Positions 18,103 to 45,742 of a DNA stretch of 64,000 nt are shown here, piece after piece. Below the pieces are notes generated by a model. The model made no database searches and was not told where the DNA came from. It was given only the letters and a program-made list of their open reading frames with translations. Both the position numbers and the translations under genes were made by a program. The DNA is from Bdellovibrio bacteriovorus (GTDB taxonomy: Bacteria; Bdellovibrionota; Bdellovibrionia; Bdellovibrionales; Bdellovibrionaceae), in the NCBI RefSeq assembly GCF_001592745.1, contig NZ_LUKD01000009.1:1-64000 (forward strand), written 5' to 3'. The first letter of the stretch is position 1, and the number at the start of each line of letters is the position of its first letter.

Positions 18103-18636
18103 TCAAGCCTTATAAGACTTGCGCGCAAGCCATACTAGGGGAGATTTTACAAGGGTCACCATTTCTCCGCCTAAAGCCGCTCCAAAGAACCACAAAACAC
18201 CGGATTCCCAGTTGACTTCATGACTCACGATGGAAAGTCCCCCCAGTGTCACCAGTGAAAGGGCTGCGATATTCATAGCACGTGAACGCATCACACGAAT
18301 CCATTCATCGTGGTTTAAAATCAAACGCGCAAATAAAATGGAAATGGAAAGATACAAAGCTCCACAGAAGAAAAGACAGAAGGTCGGACTGATTTTCATA
18401 AAGTAATGCATCAGGCCGCCGCCATCAAAGAACAGCTGCACACCAAATTGAGAACAGCTCATCAAAGTCACAAATGTTCCTAGCGCATGAGCCAGGCCCA
18501 TTTTAGAAACGACTTTCCAAGTTGGAGAGCGCTCGGCTTCAAGTTGTGCATGGATCTTTTGCAAAACAAAAGAAGAGCCGCTGGTTTCAGCAGTATCATT
18601 AGTAAAAGACTCGAAATCTTTTTTAATGTCTTTCAT
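18103..18636 (-). CDS. Probable membrane anti-sigma factor partnered with the ECF sigma factor
   Basis: This 177-residue protein has a soluble N-terminal region of about 45 residues, then four to six hydrophobic segments and a short basic C-terminus. It lies 9 bases after the ECF sigma factor gene on the same strand. This layout is typical of polytopic anti-sigma factors such as the NrsF/DUF1109 group, but I see no diagnostic motif such as a HxxxCxxC zinc anti-sigma site. The role is inferred from operon position. Confidence 0.6.
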   Translation of the reverse strand: MKDIKKDFESFTNDTAETSGSSFVLQKIHAQLEAERSPTWKVVSKMGLAHALGTFVTLMSCSQFGVQLFFDGGGLMHYFMKISPTFCLFFCGALYLSISILFARLILNHDEWIRVMRSRAMNIAALSLVTLGGLSIVSHEVNWESGVLWFFGAALGGEMVTLVKSPLVWLARKSYKA

Positions 18637-35137: not shown

Positions 35138-35214
35138 GGTGGGTATAGCTCAGTTGGTAGAGCATCGGATTGTGATTCCGAGTGTCGCGGGTTCAAGCCC
35201 CGTTACTCACCCCA
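35138..35214 (+). tRNA. tRNA-His (GTG anticodon)
   Basis: The full cloverleaf can be folded. The 7-bp acceptor GTGGGTA/TACTCAC has one G-U pair. The anticodon arm TCGGA-TTGTGAT-TCCGA has GTG at positions 34-36, and the T arm is GCGGG-TTCAAGC-CCCGT. Discriminator C73 is opposed by the extra G-1 at 35138, which is the identity element of bacterial tRNA-His. CCA is encoded (35212-35214). Strongly AT-rich accessory DNA begins just after it. Confidence 0.97.
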
Positions 35215-35246
35215 ATTTTTCTCCCGTATAAATCGCAGATAGATCT

Positions 35247-35285
35247 AAACTCTGAAAGCCTCTTCTATTAAGGGTTTCAGAGTTT
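35247..35285 (+). terminator. Long inverted repeat downstream of tRNA-His
   Basis: AAACTCTGAAA and TTTCAGAGTTT form a perfect 11-bp stem, extended by inner CC/GG pairs, with a loop of about 11 bases. No T-run follows. It probably ends or processes the tRNA transcript, and also marks the boundary between the core gene and the accessory stretch. Confidence 0.55.
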
Positions 35286-35339
35286 GTGCGGGAAGCTGCA
35301 TTTTTCTGATTCCCTGGTTCTTGCTATCGAGACATCCAT

Positions 35340-35824
35340 CAAAGAATCCATTCAAAGGGTATCTCACAAGGTGGGCTTTGGATGCGTTTAACAGCCGTCG
35401 CTGCCACCTTTTTTAGTAGCTTTTAGTTTGAACATCAGCTTTTGGAAGCATATCTCCTCGATACTGTTTACAGATTCTTCGTAGCTTTCCATACTACCGG
35501 AATAAAATCGCCTTCAAGCGATTTTATTGAGGACTCTTCAAAGTAGAGCTCAATACTTTCTGCTAACCCATTAACATTCATAAGTGCCAACCTTGAGGGC
35601 CAATGTTGGAAGCTTTTTAAAATATCTAGCTCGGGAAGTTTGGTCGTTTTGATGTTTGGTAAGATCGTAGCTTATCTAGTTGTTTCAGTGTCACTGCATC
35701 GGTAGTATCAGTATCAAAAAACCTCTATCATGCGATTTTTTATGCCAGCGGCAGAGAAGGCTTTCATCGTGTGAACCAGTGAGCTTGTGCTTCCTGCCAA
35801 ACTAAGTTCAGGAAATATTTTCGC
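35340..35824 (-). pseudogene. Decayed HEPN/Toprim-associated gene (C-terminal half, several frameshifts)
   Basis: No intact frame exists, but minus-strand translation with frame changes gives a continuous family-like sequence. It runs ELSLAGSTSSLVHTMKAF then SAAGIKNRMIEVFDTDT (Toprim-like DxD), a frame change at a six-T run near 35728, LKQLDKLRS, another frame change near 35665, LPNIKTTKLPELDILKSF, NVNGLAESIELYF, PVVWKATKNL, a stop at 35468-35470, and, one frame over, QYRGDMLPKADVQTKSY. The order GST..LV..KAF..AGI.NR, DxD, LPxNI, DVNGxAxSIELYL, PVxW, YQGE is what I recall for HEPN/Toprim-associated proteins, which are linked with defence genes. The N-terminal part is absent. Family match is from memory, not a search. 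Confidence 0.62.
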
Positions 35825-35835
35825 TTAAAATCGGC

Positions 35836-36159
35836 TTATTTTCTAAATCCGCCGGATTTGTTAAAATAGGTGTGAATGGAAATTGCCATTCCTTTTTCTC
35901 TTTCGGAAACAGATGGCATTCCCATGTGCTCAAGACATTTTTTTAGAAATCGTTCAACGTCGTCAACGCTCCCGCCATTTGCGAGAATTGTATACAGAGG
36001 TCCGGCGTAAGAGTCGTATTCGTCAGGTGGCAGCCCGTCTTTAATGAGATCCCCAATGACCTCAATTGGATCCCAGAATTGTAAATAGCGTCTTAATACT
36101 TCCATGACTTCCTTCATATCTGCATTTAATAAACATTCTTTTGTGCAGTCAAACTTCAT
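35836..36159 (-). CDS. Small protein resembling DUF1871 (possible immunity-type protein)
   Basis: 107 residues, soluble, acidic, no signal peptide. VLRRYLQFWDPIEVIGDLI followed by LPPDEYDSYAGPLYTILANG recalls the xxxWDPIG...PxDEYDxE pattern of DUF1871. Such small, single-domain acidic proteins are often immunity proteins of toxin systems, but no toxin gene is adjacent in the same direction. It lies between a decayed HEPN/Toprim gene and decayed plus-strand genes. Two in-frame ATGs exist (residues 1 and 15); neither has a strong ribosome site. Whether it is still expressed is unclear. Confidence 0.5.
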   Translation of the reverse strand: MKFDCTKECLLNADMKEVMEVLRRYLQFWDPIEVIGDLIKDGLPPDEYDSYAGPLYTILANGGSVDDVERFLKKCLEHMGMPSVSEREKGMAISIHTYFNKSGGFRK

Positions 36160-36237
36160 TTATACTTTGGATTACGGCTACAAAATCAACACTGTTGTCA
36201 AAGTTCCGCTGCTTTCATACTGATAGCTTGTACAACT

Positions 36238-36609
36238 TTGGTTGTCCTGTGGTGGAAAGCTTTCGGTGGAGACATGCTTGAAAGGGCGCGATTTTCCGAA
36301 GTTAAAATGAATCTAAAGAGTCTAGTTTCTGCAGAAGGGAGTTATCACTCAGTATACGGTTAGTACACGGCCGACTTTAATAAATTAGGCTTTTCTATTG
36401 AAGGCGATGTGAGAGCCAAATTTTATTTAGATAAAGATTATATTATTAGCAATGTGCGGGCGAAAATTAAAGAAGATCTTCCATTTGTAGCTTCAGATGA
36501 TCACCAGGTTCTGTTTGTCTTTAAAGAGGGTTTCGCGCAGAAGTCTATATGCAAATTGCGGAGAAATGGAATTCTAAGTGAATTAGGTGATAGTCAGAAT
36601 GAAAGATAA
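36238..36609 (+). pseudogene. Type IV pilin-like gene interrupted by one in-frame TAG
   Basis: Read through a single TAG at 36361-36363, the frame gives a hydrophobic N-terminal stretch (AFILIACTTLVVLWW, codons from about 36211), then ARFSEVKMNLKSLVSAEGSY HSVYG, stop, YTADFNKLGFSIEGDVRAKF (quotes split for length). The pattern SEVKxNLKxLxxAExSYxxxYGxYTxDFNxLGFxxEG is typical of the alpha-1C/alpha-beta loop region of type IV pilins. The classical G-FTLIE cleavage site is not evident, so the 5' end may also be damaged. Codons after the stop remain sensible for 81 more residues, which suggests recent inactivation, or a recoded stop. No pilus assembly genes are nearby. Confidence 0.5.
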
Positions 36610-36982
36610 AAAAATGATTCTGATATTTACTCTCGTTGTTTTAGGTATTCCGGCTGCATTTGATCACTTTGTGTCAGCTGTGTTACTAGCAGCCTTCTCA
36701 TACGGTGAGTGTAAAGTGTTCACAATCTTAAAGTCGACCAAAGTTCGCTGCTGAAATTGCCAGCATGTTGGATATTCAAAAGTTAATAGTTTACCGGGTT
36801 GCTTTTGTTCTGGCGGTGATGATCGTGTTCCTACGATGATTGGATTGTTTTTTTTTGCGACTCTTTCAGGGGCAGGGGCTTGGCGTATCAGCGCTGCCAA
36901 TGTTGTTTGCTGCATATGTATTTTTCTCTCCAGGTGCTCATTCGTGCGAAAAATGCAGACGGTATATTTAAGTCAAATTTAA
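36599..36982 (+). pseudogene. Small membrane protein with zinc-ribbon-like cysteines, interrupted by one in-frame TGA
   Basis: ATG 36599 overlaps the end of the pilin-like frame. It encodes MKDKKMILIFTLVVLGIPAA and a second hydrophobic stretch, then ILKSTKVRC followed by TGA (36752-36754). Past the TGA the same frame continues for 75 codons: NCQHVGYSKVNSLPGCFC, a third hydrophobic segment beginning at a nine-T run (MIGLFFFATLSGAGAW), and NVVCCIC. RC-stop-NCQHVG reads like a zinc-ribbon C-x-C/CxxC knuckle with one residue replaced by TGA (for example from TGG). It is either a nonsense mutant or a 51-residue truncated protein. Selenocysteine is unlikely without a SECIS hairpin. I do not recognise the intact family. 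Confidence 0.4.
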
Positions 36983-37026
36983 ATTTTAAAAATTAATATT
37001 TATTGGAAATAAATATTAAAATAATT

Positions 37027-37102
37027 ATTTGCCTGAATATTTAAATATTTAAATATTTAATTGGCAGAAAATTAATTTCCTGACAGGAAATATTCGGCAA
37101 AT
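37027..37102. repeat. AT-rich palindromic zone: nested inverted repeats and a triple 8-bp tandem repeat
   Basis: ATTTGCCTGAATATTT (37027-37042) is matched by its reverse complement with one base missing at 37088-37102. Between them lie three direct copies of ATATTTAA (37037-37060). A perfect 17-bp dyad ATTTCCTGACAGGAAAT (37075-37091) overlaps the right arm. The surrounding 150 bases are almost gene-free and extremely AT-rich. It could be a regulator binding site, a replication or transfer origin remnant, or a recombination site; no known motif is recognisable. Confidence 0.6.
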
Positions 37103-37167
37103 AAATAAAATAATTATGAAAATTAAAATCGCTTGCTTTTGTGTTGCTTCCTTTGAATCCTATTAAT

Positions 37168-37253
37168 ACCTCCTTTCAGCATCTCCACCACACAAACGGC
37201 ATACGGTAATCTGCTCAGCAGTAGTGTTCCGCATAAATTTAAGCATAGGAGGT
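37168..37253 (+). promoter_or_regulatory. Leader with anti-Shine-Dalgarno segment opposite a strong Shine-Dalgarno
   Basis: ACCTCCT at 37168-37174 is exactly complementary to the AGGAGGT ribosome site at 37247-37253 of the small membrane protein gene. If transcription starts upstream of 37168, a 7-bp GC-rich helix would mask the ribosome site, as in mRNAs of type I toxins. The loop between contains a further small dyad, CTGCTCAGCAG. The transcript start is unknown. Confidence 0.4.
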
Positions 37254-37257
37254 GCTT

Positions 37258-37431
37258 GTGAAAGTATTGAAGAAATTATTTGAGATGGTGAAACCGATCC
37301 TTGAAGATGCTATCAAAGAGACGGCAAAAGACTGGCTTAAGAGCGCAATCGCTTTCCTGATTAAGTGGTTTTTTTTAGTGTGCTGTTTTAACTTGTACTT
37401 CGTGTCTTACATAACGACAAAATATTTATGA
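37258..37431 (+). CDS. 57-residue membrane protein with amphipathic N-terminus
   Basis: GTG start 5 bases after a perfect AGGAGG. The product begins with a charged helix (MKVLKKLFEMVKPILEDAIK, then ETAKDWLKS). One transmembrane segment (AIAFLIKWFFLVCCFNLYFV) and a short basic tail (SYITTKYL) follow. No family is recognised. Size, single membrane helix and potential ribosome-site masking resemble type I toxin-antitoxin toxins or small holin-like proteins; neither is proven. It ends 9 bases before the stop of the convergent small lipoprotein. The near-perfect ribosome site in otherwise decayed DNA argues that it is a real gene. Confidence 0.55.
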   Translation: MKVLKKLFEMVKPILEDAIKETAKDWLKSAIAFLIKWFFLVCCFNLYFVSYITTKYL

Positions 37432-37440
37432 TCCAAAATT

Positions 37441-37554
37441 TTAAGAGAAGTCGTCGGTAGGGCTTCGGCTTAGATGAAGAGAAAGTTCTTGAACGGGCTG
37501 CTTTTTCTGGCAGGAGATAAGTGCAGTTAAAATAGCTAATAGAATGCATTTCAT
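37441..37554 (-). CDS. 37-residue predicted lipoprotein
   Basis: The frame encodes MKCILLAILTALISCQKKQP and a further 17 polar residues. LISC is an acceptable lipobox with the lipidated Cys at residue 15, leaving a mature lipopeptide of only 23 residues. AGGA lies 8 bases before the ATG. It is 89 bases downstream of the PhoD-like gene on the same strand and may share its transcript. Colicin lysis proteins and entry-exclusion lipoproteins are similarly small, but no such system is visible. An overlapping 84-residue frame on the same strand looks like a shadow. Confidence 0.5.
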   Translation of the reverse strand: MKCILLAILTALISCQKKQPVQELSLHLSRSPTDDFS

Positions 37555-37643
37555 TGTTGCTTTCCTGAATTGGTTCGCGATGAGAGAGTTCTGCTTTGAG
37601 GGCCCGCAAGTTCATACAGGTCCTCGGCTGTTTGAACGGCATG

Positions 37644-39266
37644 CTAAGGCGTTAAATCCTCGGCTGCTTTTTCTGTAGCGTGGGCCGCGCTGTTTTCTAA
37701 TTTGCTGTCGGCAGTTTCTCCTTCAAGTGGATTCCAGCTGCCAATTGGTAATGAGCGAGATCCTTGAATTCCTTCTATAAAGATTCTTGCTGCCTGATCC
37801 TTTGCATCCGTTTTTAAAAGAGACGGTCTTAAGAAAACAAAGTTTCGAGCAGTTACAAACTGATTGTTGATGCCTATCAGTTTGAAATCGTTGTTCTGCT
37901 TTTTGATAAGCATTCCCTCTTGCAGTAGCCCTTCCACTACGTCTGGCATTGGGTCGTATCCGATTGGAGAGGAAACGAGCACTCCCAATGGGAATGTTCC
38001 TTTATCCACGGTAATGAACAACTCAATGGAGCCTCCGGTGTGAATATCACCCGTTAGAAGTGTATACGTGGTGTCGTTGAGAGCTTTGGTGGAAAGACAT
38101 TTCATAAGCTCACCAAAGAAACCAATAGCTCGTTTTGATGTTAACGCGTCATCCATGTCATCTTCCATCCCAACGATGTAGTCCCACGCGAACATCAGAT
38201 GCCATTTTTCAAATTTGGCTTTCACCTTTGGCTTTTTCAGCCATTCGATGATTCCGGCCATCCAACCTTCTTTCTGATTGGAATTTCTTGCCGGAACAAC
38301 TGGGGACAAGATCAAAATGTTTTTATGTGGCAAAGCTTGGATAACAGCGAAAACCGCATTCTTGTGATCTTCGTCCATGATTTTATTAATCCCTGCATTT
38401 TTCTCTGTGCGCATATCGAGAGCAATTAGGGCCGACTCACCCAAGTCCAAAGTAAAAGAGTAAGCGGATTTTGTTTTGGAGATAATTGGAGTTGGGTTTC
38501 TTGAGGTTTGGAACGCCTCGAAAACTTCTACCAAAATACTCATGTAATTTAGCCAGCTAGATTCAAAAACGCCTTGCTCGTTGAAAAATCGGCCACCGGC
38601 ACCGTCGGTAAAATCATGGTCATCACACATTGCCACGGACGGAATACTTGCCATGAGCCTGCGGTAGCTTGGGTCTGAGGTCTGTTCCCACGCTCGACGA
38701 ATAGCTGCCATTTTAACTTGGTTTCTAAGCTCAGGAGTGACATCGCCCTTAAGTTTTTCATAAAACTCTTTTTCGGTGTCATCTTGATAATATTGATCTC
38801 CGCCAAGAATTAAAAGCTTTGGTGGATTTTTGGAATTTGCGATTGTGGTTTCAAGGCGACGCCACATGTCCCACTTTTTATTTTGATCTTTGAAGATGTA
38901 GACGCCGTTACAGCTTATAAGAACTGTTTCAGCATATGCATCTAGAGTGCTCCAATAGGTGAAACGAAGGTTCGACTCTAGAAGGCCAGCTCCCAAGTCT
39001 AGTCTTTCCCCTTTTTTGGTGAAGCGATAAGAGTAATTTCCACCGGAAATTAATCCATGAAATTCAAAAACGAAGTTTCTGACTTCTGGATCTTGCGCCT
39101 TGGCTTTCATTGGTGGAAGTGCGACTCCGCTGAGGCTAAGTGTGCATTCCACTTCGTCGAAGTCTGTTTGAAAAGGTGCGCAAAGAACAATCTTTTGCGC
39201 CCCATTATGTCCGCGTCCCAAGAAAACGTGGATAAATTCATGACTACTAGAACGTACCGATTCCAT
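37644..39266 (-). CDS. PhoD-like metallophosphatase (alkaline phosphatase D family)
   Basis: About 540 residues. A beta-rich N-terminal domain (residues 1-120) is followed by a calcineurin-like phosphoesterase domain with LLILGGDQYYQDD, SVAMCDDHDFTDG and LLTGDIHTGG as metal-binding blocks. PhoD enzymes are secreted phosphodiesterases, but I see neither a twin-arginine nor a Sec signal at the N-terminus (MESVRSSSHEFIHVFLG), so this one may act in the cytoplasm. Start ATG 39266 follows AGGGGG by 5 bases. The frame upstream adds 20 residues without a ribosome site. Its place in the accessory stretch suggests it was acquired. Confidence 0.82.
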   Translation of the reverse strand: MESVRSSSHEFIHVFLGRGHNGAQKIVLCAPFQTDFDEVECTLSLSGVALPPMKAKAQDPEVRNFVFEFHGLISGGNYSYRFTKKGERLDLGAGLLESNLRFTYWSTLDAYAETVLISCNGVYIFKDQNKKWDMWRRLETTIANSKNPPKLLILGGDQYYQDDTEKEFYEKLKGDVTPELRNQVKMAAIRRAWEQTSDPSYRRLMASIPSVAMCDDHDFTDGAGGRFFNEQGVFESSWLNYMSILVEVFEAFQTSRNPTPIISKTKSAYSFTLDLGESALIALDMRTEKNAGINKIMDEDHKNAVFAVIQALPHKNILILSPVVPARNSNQKEGWMAGIIEWLKKPKVKAKFEKWHLMFAWDYIVGMEDDMDDALTSKRAIGFFGELMKCLSTKALNDTTYTLLTGDIHTGGSIELFITVDKGTFPLGVLVSSPIGYDPMPDVVEGLLQEGMLIKKQNNDFKLIGINNQFVTARNFVFLRPSLLKTDAKDQAARIFIEGIQGSRSLPIGSWNPLEGETADSKLENSAAHATEKAAEDLTP

Positions 39267-39981: not shown

Positions 39982-40548
39982 TCAATTTTCCTCTAAAATA
40001 AATTTTTCGCGTTCCTCGCGAAATATTTCGCGAACTGTATTTTCATATTCTTCAATTCCATTCAAGGCTATCTTTGTCATGTCTTTTAGAAGTTCCTCAG
40101 AGTTCAATAGTGGGCCGGCAAAGAAGTCTTGTCCAAAATCAATATATAAAAGTGCCTGTCTTAATTTGGGGAAATCAGCCATATTGTGAAAATAATTTTC
40201 AATACCTGATCTCAATTCATCACGAGAGAGCGTTGGATTATTTTGTAGGAAAGTTTCTACCAATTGGTTGGTTTTTGGTAACATACGATCTAGATAAAAT
40301 TTAGTTGCAGGTTGGAATTTTGATGAATGGAATTTTAGATTTTTTTGATCGAATCCGTTCTCTAATCCTTTGATTATCTTTAAAACTTCTTCAAATGCTG
40401 TTATAGTTAGAAACAATGCTCGTCTAATATGATTTGCTTCAAATAAAAGACGAGATTCGATAATCATATCTCGAGCATTGTCCAGGACACGCTCGCAGAA
40501 ACGAAATGTTGCAAAGTCCTCTTTTGAAATTAATAGTTTGCCTTCCAT
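39982..40548 (-). CDS. AbiV-like abortive-infection HEPN protein
   Basis: 188 residues, all-helical and charged. The HEPN/AbiV pattern is visible: ARDMIIESRLLFEANHIRRA, LFLTITAFEEVLKIIKGLE (the A.LFL..AxEExxK core), then FHSSKFQPATKFYLD where AbiV proteins have an H-K(H)K cluster. In Lactococcus, AbiV blocks phage late translation. Single HEPN proteins of this kind occur widely in defence islands. It is flanked by decayed DNA; the frame continues openly beyond its TGA. The only nearby candidate partner is the HEPN/Toprim remnant 4 kb away. Confidence 0.6.
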   Translation of the reverse strand: MEGKLLISKEDFATFRFCERVLDNARDMIIESRLLFEANHIRRALFLTITAFEEVLKIIKGLENGFDQKNLKFHSSKFQPATKFYLDRMLPKTNQLVETFLQNNPTLSRDELRSGIENYFHNMADFPKLRQALLYIDFGQDFFAGPLLNSEELLKDMTKIALNGIEEYENTVREIFREEREKFILEEN

Positions 40549-42002: not shown

Positions 42003-42626
42003 CTAGCCTGCTTTGCGTATGTCATCAGATGGATGAACCTTGGGCTTTTCCGGATTTTTCAGCGATAGCCAAAACAAACGAATCAATAACGCGCGCATAA
42101 TAATGCCACCTGGATTTAATATTCCTTGAAGCAAGTTCATGACAGTTTCAAATAGAAAAAAGCCGAAAGCTCCTTTTAGATAAGATCGACTTTTAGTGTC
42201 CCAACCTGCAAGAGCTAAAACTAAATATACAGAGCCAGAAAAGAAATTATAGAAACCGAATCCAACTTTAGCCATAGCCTCTACGTGACCGAACACAACA
42301 ATAGATCCAATTAGAAAATTCAATCCACCAAGACATGCCATTAAGACATATCCATCTTTACTTGAGGGTTGAGATGTCGATTCAGAATCTGTAGTAGTGT
42401 GCTTGTAATAGGGCGAGAAATCCCACGGTGACCATTTTACAAATATTTTGCTGCCGTCGGAAAGGGGAAAGGTCGCACCCTTATAAAAGATTTCGTTCCA
42501 TCCGCGTAAAGTTCCCAGAAGCTTTTCATCCAGAAAGACTTCGATTTTTGTTCCAAGCAAATTCCATTTTAGAGTCAGACTGCGTGTCTTGCCTTCAGCG
42601 CGAATGAAGTCTTCTCTTTGTGCCAT
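42003..42626 (-). CDS. Membrane protein of unknown function with soluble N-terminal domain
   Basis: 207 residues. Residues 1-75 form a soluble beta-rich domain (KWNLLGTKIEVFLDEKLLGT); a polar Ser/Thr linker and four hydrophobic segments follow (VLMACLGGLNFLIGSIVVFG, NFFSGSVYLVLALAG and two more). The N-terminal strand pattern resembles small domains that pack on kinases or transporters, but I cannot assign it. First gene of a two-gene unit at the right edge of the accessory stretch. Confidence 0.55.
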   Translation of the reverse strand: MAQREDFIRAEGKTRSLTLKWNLLGTKIEVFLDEKLLGTLRGWNEIFYKGATFPLSDGSKIFVKWSPWDFSPYYKHTTTDSESTSQPSSKDGYVLMACLGGLNFLIGSIVVFGHVEAMAKVGFGFYNFFSGSVYLVLALAGWDTKSRSYLKGAFGFFLFETVMNLLQGILNPGGIIMRALLIRLFWLSLKNPEKPKVHPSDDIRKAG

Positions 42627-42760
42627 CTGAGACCGCCTTCCTGTGAGCTCTTCTTATCGGGACGTAAGATAGTAAACTAAAGAATGTTTTATTCCTGTCA
42701 AAATTCTCATTCTGAAACACAAAAATAAAGATTTCCGAGAGAAAATCCGATATTATTCTC

Positions 42761-45742
42761 ATGAATTCGGAACGTTCTGGGACTTTAGGTTATAGTTCGT
42801 TCTATAAAGCTATCATTTGTTCGATGGCTTTGGGTTCCTGTACCATCGACACTAAGATTCGTAATCCCTTCGCCGTTCAAATTAATAAGTCTTCGATCTA
42901 CACCAATTCCTCAACGCATCCGTTTTCATTTTCACCGACGTGGGAAGAATCCGTCTTTAACGGCGGGACCGTACTTCTTTACGATAACGCCTTTTGCGAC
43001 GGGACTCCCACGGAAGTTGAATTATCCGGGACAGACATACATATCGATGGTCTGCAAGATGGTAAAAGCTATTACGCGAAAGTGCGTGTGACGAATAATA
43101 GTCGCAACTACGAATCATCTTGCGCATTCTGGGTGACGGTAGACATGCAGGCCCCGATGCCGGCGACGATCACCGCGCCCTTATCAGATTCTTACGTCTC
43201 TGCGACTCACTTTGTCGGTGCATGGAATAGCGTAGTCGATATCGGACCGGCAGGCTTAAGTGAAATTCCGTACAAAGTCAGACTTTACGATCAACCCTCG
43301 TGCACGGGTTCCATCATCTCTACGAAAAACTTAGCATCGCTCACTCACGTCTTTGACAATCTTTCCGCAAATACATTTTACTCTTTTGACATTCAATCCA
43401 CAGATAAAGCCGGCAACTGGAGCACTCCCGTTTGTTCTGCTTTCATGGAAGTGGATTTATTCGCACCAGGCTTTGTCTTAACTCACACAGGATCTGATCA
43501 AGGATACGCCGCCACGCAAACAGTTTCTATCACGGTAACAAACGACGCCTGGGCCTCTTATTGGTGCCTAACGGAAGACTTAAGTTTTATTCCTTTAAGT
43601 CCCGCAGATCCTTGCCCCGGAGGACAAGGGCCCGCAAATGGTTGGCACACCTCTCGTCCAACAAACTACGATCTTTCCGCAGGCGACGGAGTAAAAACAG
43701 TGAAGCTATGGCTCTTCGATAGCGCGGGCAATGCTCTGACGAATAAAACTCCTACTTATAGTATCGTCTTAGACACTATCCCTCCGGGAGCTTTCCCAGT
43801 CTTAGGAATCACCGGCGGAAGTGATCTGACCATCGATGATCGTTTATCACAACTGGTAGATCCCATCGTCAACTGGAGTCCCGCTTCAGGATCCTCCGCA
43901 TACAACGTATCGATTCTTAACTTAGATCTTACTGTGCGCTGTGAAGAAAACGTTGGGGCCTCTATCATGCAGCAAGCTCTCACTGGTTGCGATCTCGTTC
44001 CCGAAACAGATTACATCGCCCGCGTGATCGCCCGCGATGAAGCCGGGAATCTTACACAAGGAACCGACGTCATCTTCCGCGTGGATGTCACTCCACCGGG
44101 AAATTTCAATATTTTAGGAGTTAGGGGAGGCGTCGATACGACTTCAGATACATGGGCCGCACAGTGGCCAGAAGTCGTTTGGAGTTCTTCATCTGATGCC
44201 GTCATTTATCAAACGTCCATCCAGTCAATGAGCGGAACCACAGTCTGTTCTGAACAGTCGACCTCCACAACGTCCTATGATTTTTCAACAGCGGGTTGTC
44301 TTTCATTGGTTCACGGAATGCAGTATCAAGTTCTAGTGCGCTCGTTAGATCAAGCAGACCTGATAACATCCGCCAGTAACAGTCCCTATATTTTCCGAGC
44401 GGACACTCAAGCCCCAGTACTCAATGTTACAACAGCTCCAAACGCTATTATCAGAGACACGGCAACAGATTTTGAATTCACCGTTTCAGACGATACAAGC
44501 GGACTAGCAAGTGTGGAATGTAATTTTAATTCTGGCGGTTACGCAAATTGCGATAGCCCCTATGAATTATCCGGACTTTCTCAAGGAAGTTACTCATTAA
44601 GTATTCGCGCAAAAGACATCGCCGGAAATGAAGTCATTTCAAATCATAACTTCGACGTCGATCTCTATCCTCCCGTAATCACGGTCACGGATTCTCCGGG
44701 CGCCTTTGTTAGTGAAACTTCAGAGCAATTTGTATTTAATGTCGTTGATTCAGGTTCATCCGGAGTCAGCTTAATAGAATGTAAATTGGCCGGCGGATCA
44801 TGGGCCGCGTGCGCTTCTCCTTATTTAATTCCAGTCGTGACGGACGGGGCTCATGAATTCCGAATTCGCGCCACTGACTACCTAGGCCACGTCAGCGCCG
44901 AAACCACCATCAACTGGTTCGTAGACTCAACGCCGCCTTCGATAGTCTTTACATCAGCACCTTCGGACACAGTTGACACGGACGCGACTATAGAGTTTGA
45001 AGTCAACGAATCCGAAACAACCGTAAATATTGAATGCGACTTAGACGGAGGAGGATGGTCTTCATGTACATCTCCTCACAACCTGACAAACCTTCCTTCG
45101 GGCACACACAGCTTTTCAGTCAGAGCAACAAATGCAGCCGGTCTTGTGTCGACCCAAACTGTCACTTGGAATGTCATTGCACTTACATCATGTAAAGTTA
45201 TCTTAGATACCGGTGGCTCTGTCGGAGACGGAATGTATATGATCGACCCTGATGGAGCGGGCGGAAGCGCACCGATCTCTGCCTATTGTGAAATGACGAC
45301 CAATGGAGGCGGTTGGACATGGATCATCGGGAACGCCAATTACGCGAGCGGAAACTTTCCTGCCGCAGTTTCTGTCAGCGGAGTTTCTATCTCTTATAGC
45401 GGAGGACAAGTATCTTCTTATCAAGGCACAGGCGCGAGTGGTTATTGCAATGTTCCCGCACCGTTTATCGGTGTGACAATCACCGTGCCCCACAAAGAAG
45501 TTTACCTTTACGGATATTCGCAAGGTTACAACGCCACACCTTCAGCGTGGATTGATATCGGAAATGACGGTTATGATTATCATTGGGCAAGCACTTGTCA
45601 CAATTGCACTGCCGCGAACACTCATAACGTCACTCGTTCGGTGGCGTCAGAAGTGACGTCTTCTTATGTGAACGTCAACGGCAACTCTTGCCAATATACT
45701 GGCGGTAACCAAGCCCATATCTATGTTTTAAAAGTACGGTAG
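42761..45742 (+). CDS. Large surface lipoprotein with Ig-like repeats and C-terminal fibrinogen-like domain
   Basis: 993 residues. A signal region ends in MALGSC, a plausible lipobox (Cys at about residue 28). Fibronectin/Ig-like units follow; two with TPPGAFPVLGI / TPPGNFNILGV starts cover about residues 340-545. Three repeats of about 85 residues (from about 550, 637 and 725) share PP.I..T..P, a VECxxxGGxWxxCxSPxxL core with paired cysteines and a closing RATDxxG. The last 185 residues (CKVILDTGGSVGDGMYMIDP, YCEMTTNGGGWTW, HIYVLKVR) form a fibrinogen-like domain. Such proteins bind glycans or proteins at the cell surface; a role in prey or surface recognition is inferred. Confidence 0.8.
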   Translation: MNSERSGTLGYSSFYKAIICSMALGSCTIDTKIRNPFAVQINKSSIYTNSSTHPFSFSPTWEESVFNGGTVLLYDNAFCDGTPTEVELSGTDIHIDGLQDGKSYYAKVRVTNNSRNYESSCAFWVTVDMQAPMPATITAPLSDSYVSATHFVGAWNSVVDIGPAGLSEIPYKVRLYDQPSCTGSIISTKNLASLTHVFDNLSANTFYSFDIQSTDKAGNWSTPVCSAFMEVDLFAPGFVLTHTGSDQGYAATQTVSITVTNDAWASYWCLTEDLSFIPLSPADPCPGGQGPANGWHTSRPTNYDLSAGDGVKTVKLWLFDSAGNALTNKTPTYSIVLDTIPPGAFPVLGITGGSDLTIDDRLSQLVDPIVNWSPASGSSAYNVSILNLDLTVRCEENVGASIMQQALTGCDLVPETDYIARVIARDEAGNLTQGTDVIFRVDVTPPGNFNILGVRGGVDTTSDTWAAQWPEVVWSSSSDAVIYQTSIQSMSGTTVCSEQSTSTTSYDFSTAGCLSLVHGMQYQVLVRSLDQADLITSASNSPYIFRADTQAPVLNVTTAPNAIIRDTATDFEFTVSDDTSGLASVECNFNSGGYANCDSPYELSGLSQGSYSLSIRAKDIAGNEVISNHNFDVDLYPPVITVTDSPGAFVSETSEQFVFNVVDSGSSGVSLIECKLAGGSWAACASPYLIPVVTDGAHEFRIRATDYLGHVSAETTINWFVDSTPPSIVFTSAPSDTVDTDATIEFEVNESETTVNIECDLDGGGWSSCTSPHNLTNLPSGTHSFSVRATNAAGLVSTQTVTWNVIALTSCKVILDTGGSVGDGMYMIDPDGAGGSAPISAYCEMTTNGGGWTWIIGNANYASGNFPAAVSVSGVSISYSGGQVSSYQGTGASGYCNVPAPFIGVTITVPHKEVYLYGYSQGYNATPSAWIDIGNDGYDYHWASTCHNCTAANTHNVTRSVASEVTSSYVNVNGNSCQYTGGNQAHIYVLKVR

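Follow-up and report, generated by a model that had tools for sequence, protein, structure and literature searches.

We analyzed a 64,000-nucleotide stretch of Bdellovibrio bacteriovorus DNA (hereafter, the window), in which a small reading frame lies inside a variable accessory segment of 7.5 kb on the 3′ side of tRNA-His (Table 1). The window is part of a 3.76-Mb genome, and the gene two positions before tRNA-His shares about 80% amino-acid identity with Bdellovibrio records. The flanks of this segment match the sister species G001 at 93–95% DNA identity. Homology to G001 ends at position 35223, nine bases past tRNA-His and near a contig end, and restarts at 42702 on another of its contigs; no part of the 7.5 kb was found in G001. 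Past the right boundary, G001 instead carries DNA unrelated to the window with other accessory-looking frames, and the site is therefore variable; by eye, these frames are helicase-like and methyltransferase-like. Among the other members of the genus that were searched, homology likewise ends just past tRNA-His. As for end repeats, 35180–35260 and 42500–42900 have no word of at least 10 bases in common. The segment has a lower G+C content (0.37–0.44 vs. about 0.45), and it carries a PhoD-like gene (under the Pfam cut-off), an AbiV-family gene, and three unassigned genes. The LITAF-like gene that precedes the small frame as a broken copy is intact in the congener G005 (L035, 6802–7086), and a 107-residue gene near the broken copy is common to G005 at 62% identity. 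The segment is therefore partly decayed on its left side. The stretch upstream of the leader (36977–37065) is very AT-rich and contains several imperfect repeats, both inverted and direct, that overlap one another.

Table 1. Features of the window discussed in the text, with positions counted from its first base
Feature	Position	Strand	Remark
Variable accessory segment	35224–42701		3′ of tRNA-His; contains the small gene; the sister species lacks it between the same flanks
Broken LITAF-like gene copy	36716–36956	+	Zinc-ribbon membrane gene; internal stop codons; just 5′ of the small gene
5′ arm of predicted interrupted stem	37163–37186	+	Partner 37248–37270; strength within chance in wide contexts
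ACCTCCT	37168–37174	+	Complementary to the ribosome site; pairing with it not predicted in folds
Ribosome-binding site AGGAGG	37247–37252	+	5 bases 5′ of GTG 37258
3′ arm of predicted stem	37248–37270	+	Over the ribosome site and start codon
Small membrane protein ORF	37258–37431	+	GTG start; 57 codons; TGA at 37429–37431
AbiV-family abortive infection gene	39982–40548	−	In the accessory segment
177-codon gene	18103–18636	−	Other window ORF with AGGAGG

The perfect AGGAGG and the GTG-started frame of 57 residues reported in an earlier note on this DNA are both present. In-frame stops lie 5′ of the frame, which rules out that it is merely the 3′ end of a longer gene. To assess chance occurrence, we generated 300 shuffled versions of the tract 35224–37640 (2.4 kb) with dinucleotides preserved. 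Without a ribosome-site condition, the shuffled tract yields on average about four ORFs that are 57 codons or longer, and such an ORF combined with a perfect AGGAGG at the proper spacing arose in about 0.3% of shuffles. The real window contains only two ORFs of at least this length with such an AGGAGG, namely the small gene and a 177-codon gene on the opposite strand. The codon log-odds of the small ORF, trained on 31 window genes, was 0.124 per codon, which is inside the range of real 57-codon gene fragments (−0.01 to 0.40, 5–95%) and was reached by 1.3% of 303 spurious ORFs; the test is weaker against a mononucleotide background, with 7% of spurious ORFs scoring equally high. Inside the gene, an eight-T run on the plus strand (TGG TTT TTT TTA, 37369–37377) agrees with the slippery pattern U UUU UUA, and its length could also vary.

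The amphipathic helix and the membrane helix described earlier were both recovered from the peptide. Residues 1–27 have a moment of 0.46, which exceeds 99.3% of shuffles of the same composition (0.7% reach it; p = 0.007), and the second half of the protein holds one hydrophobic stretch (residues 31–49; best 19-residue Kyte–Doolittle mean, 2.11). AlphaFold2, run on the single sequence, predicted one helix over residues 3–56 with a mean pLDDT of 86.5. The basic tail of the earlier description did not hold up: K55 is the sole basic residue after residue 49. Cationic residues in type I toxins are generally C-terminal, a feature that is common, though not universal; the last eight residues here, with K55 only, form no cationic C-terminus.

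We found no relatives of the peptide. Protein searches covered its own genome, 99 relatives, the family, and the phylum, with 24 genomes from the genus, 66 from the family, and 369 from the phylum; beyond the peptide itself, they gave only chance-level matches and none at a meaningful E-value. Species-representative genomes, viral contigs, phages, and plasmids contained none. The best weak protein matches (L040, L041, L042, L004, and L006) were rejected, as they mostly had in-frame stops or lay in other contexts, and none was a small ORF that had both a ribosome site and this build. No profile in Pfam, NCBIfam, PHROGs, or PADLOC matched the peptide, including the named type I toxin families in Pfam, NCBIfam, and PADLOC, in agreement with the earlier note, which placed it in no named family. 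Since no collection searched contained a relative, there is no evidence of selection on the 57-codon frame. A screen of ten stretches for small genes (25–75 codons with a ribosome site and a membrane helix) likewise gave none related: its only finds were frames of 33 codons in L043 and of 48 codons in L085. The former, MNKDVIIVFGFFSIGTVFLVFFCKRELNWFRKK, from a congener (L043, 2858, plus strand), has a membrane helix, a basic tail, and a ribosome site, and is nearer to the build of type I toxins than the 57-residue protein is.

The ribosome site had also been described as self-masking through the upstream ACCTCCT. This 7-mer is indeed the exact complement of AGGAGGT (37247–37253), but its pairing with the ribosome site had a probability of about 0 in partition-function folds of three contexts, and forcing it cost 4.7–5.3 kcal/mol relative to the best fold. 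When 99-base leaders were shuffled, 1.4% contained the exact 7-mer and 9.5% contained some 7-mer exactly complementary to the ribosome-site region. The predicted better partner of the ribosome site is 37179–37186, which lies within a predicted 20-pair interrupted stem between the two arms listed in Table 1 (P = 0.71–1.0). In the short context, opening the ribosome site would cost 16.3 kcal/mol, which tops all starts of the larger ORFs of the window and was reached by 3.3% of shuffled leaders, a figure that applies to a single setting and mononucleotide shuffles. In wider contexts, the opening cost was 9.7–10.3 kcal/mol, reached by 40–52% of shuffled leaders; among dinucleotide-shuffled leaders, 40%, 52%, and 4.8% matched the cost for three transcript choices. 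The strength of masking hangs on the transcript start. A perfect AGGAGG is masked about this well by chance, and self-masking clearly beyond chance is not supported, with the named pair at a probability of about 0 and with chance-level opening costs in two of the three contexts. The folding check suggested for 37100–37435 likewise gave a whole fold no stabler than shuffles (z = +1.0). A 16-codon frame, MKIKIACFCVASFESY (37116–37166, plus strand), terminates at the predicted stem's 5′ arm and has no visible ribosome site.

Promoter-like and terminator-like sites on both strands of 36900–37700 did not exceed shuffle expectation. Rfam, including a loose threshold, gave no antitoxin or other family, all matches being far below gathering scores, and a DNA search found the leader nowhere else in the same genome. 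These results agree with the remark in the earlier note that no antisense RNA gene is visible; an antisense RNA that is short and transcribed from an unusual promoter would be compatible with these searches.

We consider it probable, at roughly 0.6, that the frame is an orphan but genuine small membrane-protein gene of the variable accessory segment, because of the rarity of its combination with AGGAGG, its codon log-odds, the amphipathicity of its product, the single helix, and its location. The N-terminal half would lie on the membrane as an amphipathic helix and the C-terminal half would form one membrane helix. Translation from the perfect ribosome site would be strong wherever mRNA is made, and the leader would fold about like a random leader of equal composition. 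We infer that the protein is expressed and inserted into the membrane, where its likeliest function may be that of a membrane-acting small accessory protein, which binds or modulates membrane proteins or disturbs the membrane when overproduced. Against this reading, the segment is partly decayed on its left side, and the frame could have arisen by chance or be a relic: the broken LITAF-like gene lies directly 5′, no promoter or terminator rises above chance, no collection searched contains a relative, the codon test weakens on a mononucleotide background, and several frames of such length are expected in the shuffled tract. That decayed accessory DNA merely kept a frame behind AGGAGG by chance, with nothing made or needed, is nevertheless rather unlikely, given how seldom shuffles produce the combination and given the codon score and amphipathicity of the peptide.

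We regard as improbable a type I toxin-like gene whose peptide would harm its own membrane and whose mRNA would be silenced by the folded leader and an as yet unseen antisense RNA. Membrane-associated type I toxins include Fst, Ibs, Ldr, TisB, and AapA (review PMC8309996), and the 57-residue peptide resembles them in being shorter than about 60 residues, in having one putative membrane helix, and in being encoded by a single small gene (PMC8309996). It differs from them in that no antisense RNA gene was detected, in the missing cationic tail, the lack of a sequence or profile match, and a long amphipathic first half. The likeness is one of size and helix only. The accessory location alongside a defence gene and the predicted stem over the ribosome site would suit a toxin, but the toxin reading is not supported: the named masking pair is absent from the folds, masking is not clearly stronger than in chance leaders, and neither an antisense promoter or terminator above chance nor an Rfam match was found. 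In aapA/IsoA of Helicobacter pylori, the ribosome site is similarly hidden by mRNA structure, as predicted here, and for AapA3, of 30 residues and with an 80-nt antisense RNA, masking was experimentally tested (PMC6733600). Unlike in aapA/IsoA, the predicted masking of the small gene is within chance and no antisense RNA was seen. Very improbable is a type I-like toxin gated by the masking stem with MKIKIACFCVASFESY as its leader frame, in which the stem could be opened by ribosomes as they finish MKIKIACFCVASFESY, much as with coupled leader peptides.

Unclassified small membrane proteins occur in bacterial accessory regions. The 57-residue protein is like them in its strong ribosome site, its amphipathic and membrane helices, and its lineage restriction, and nothing we examined separates it from them. 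Only three open-access papers name both Bdellovibrio and type I toxin–antitoxin, and none is about a Bdellovibrio system by title; a proven type I toxin in Bdellovibrio would therefore be of interest. As the evidence stands, this is an ordinary orphan small gene and, if real, it is a further lineage-restricted small membrane protein of a predatory bacterium, encoded together with a defence gene in a variable tRNA-linked segment.
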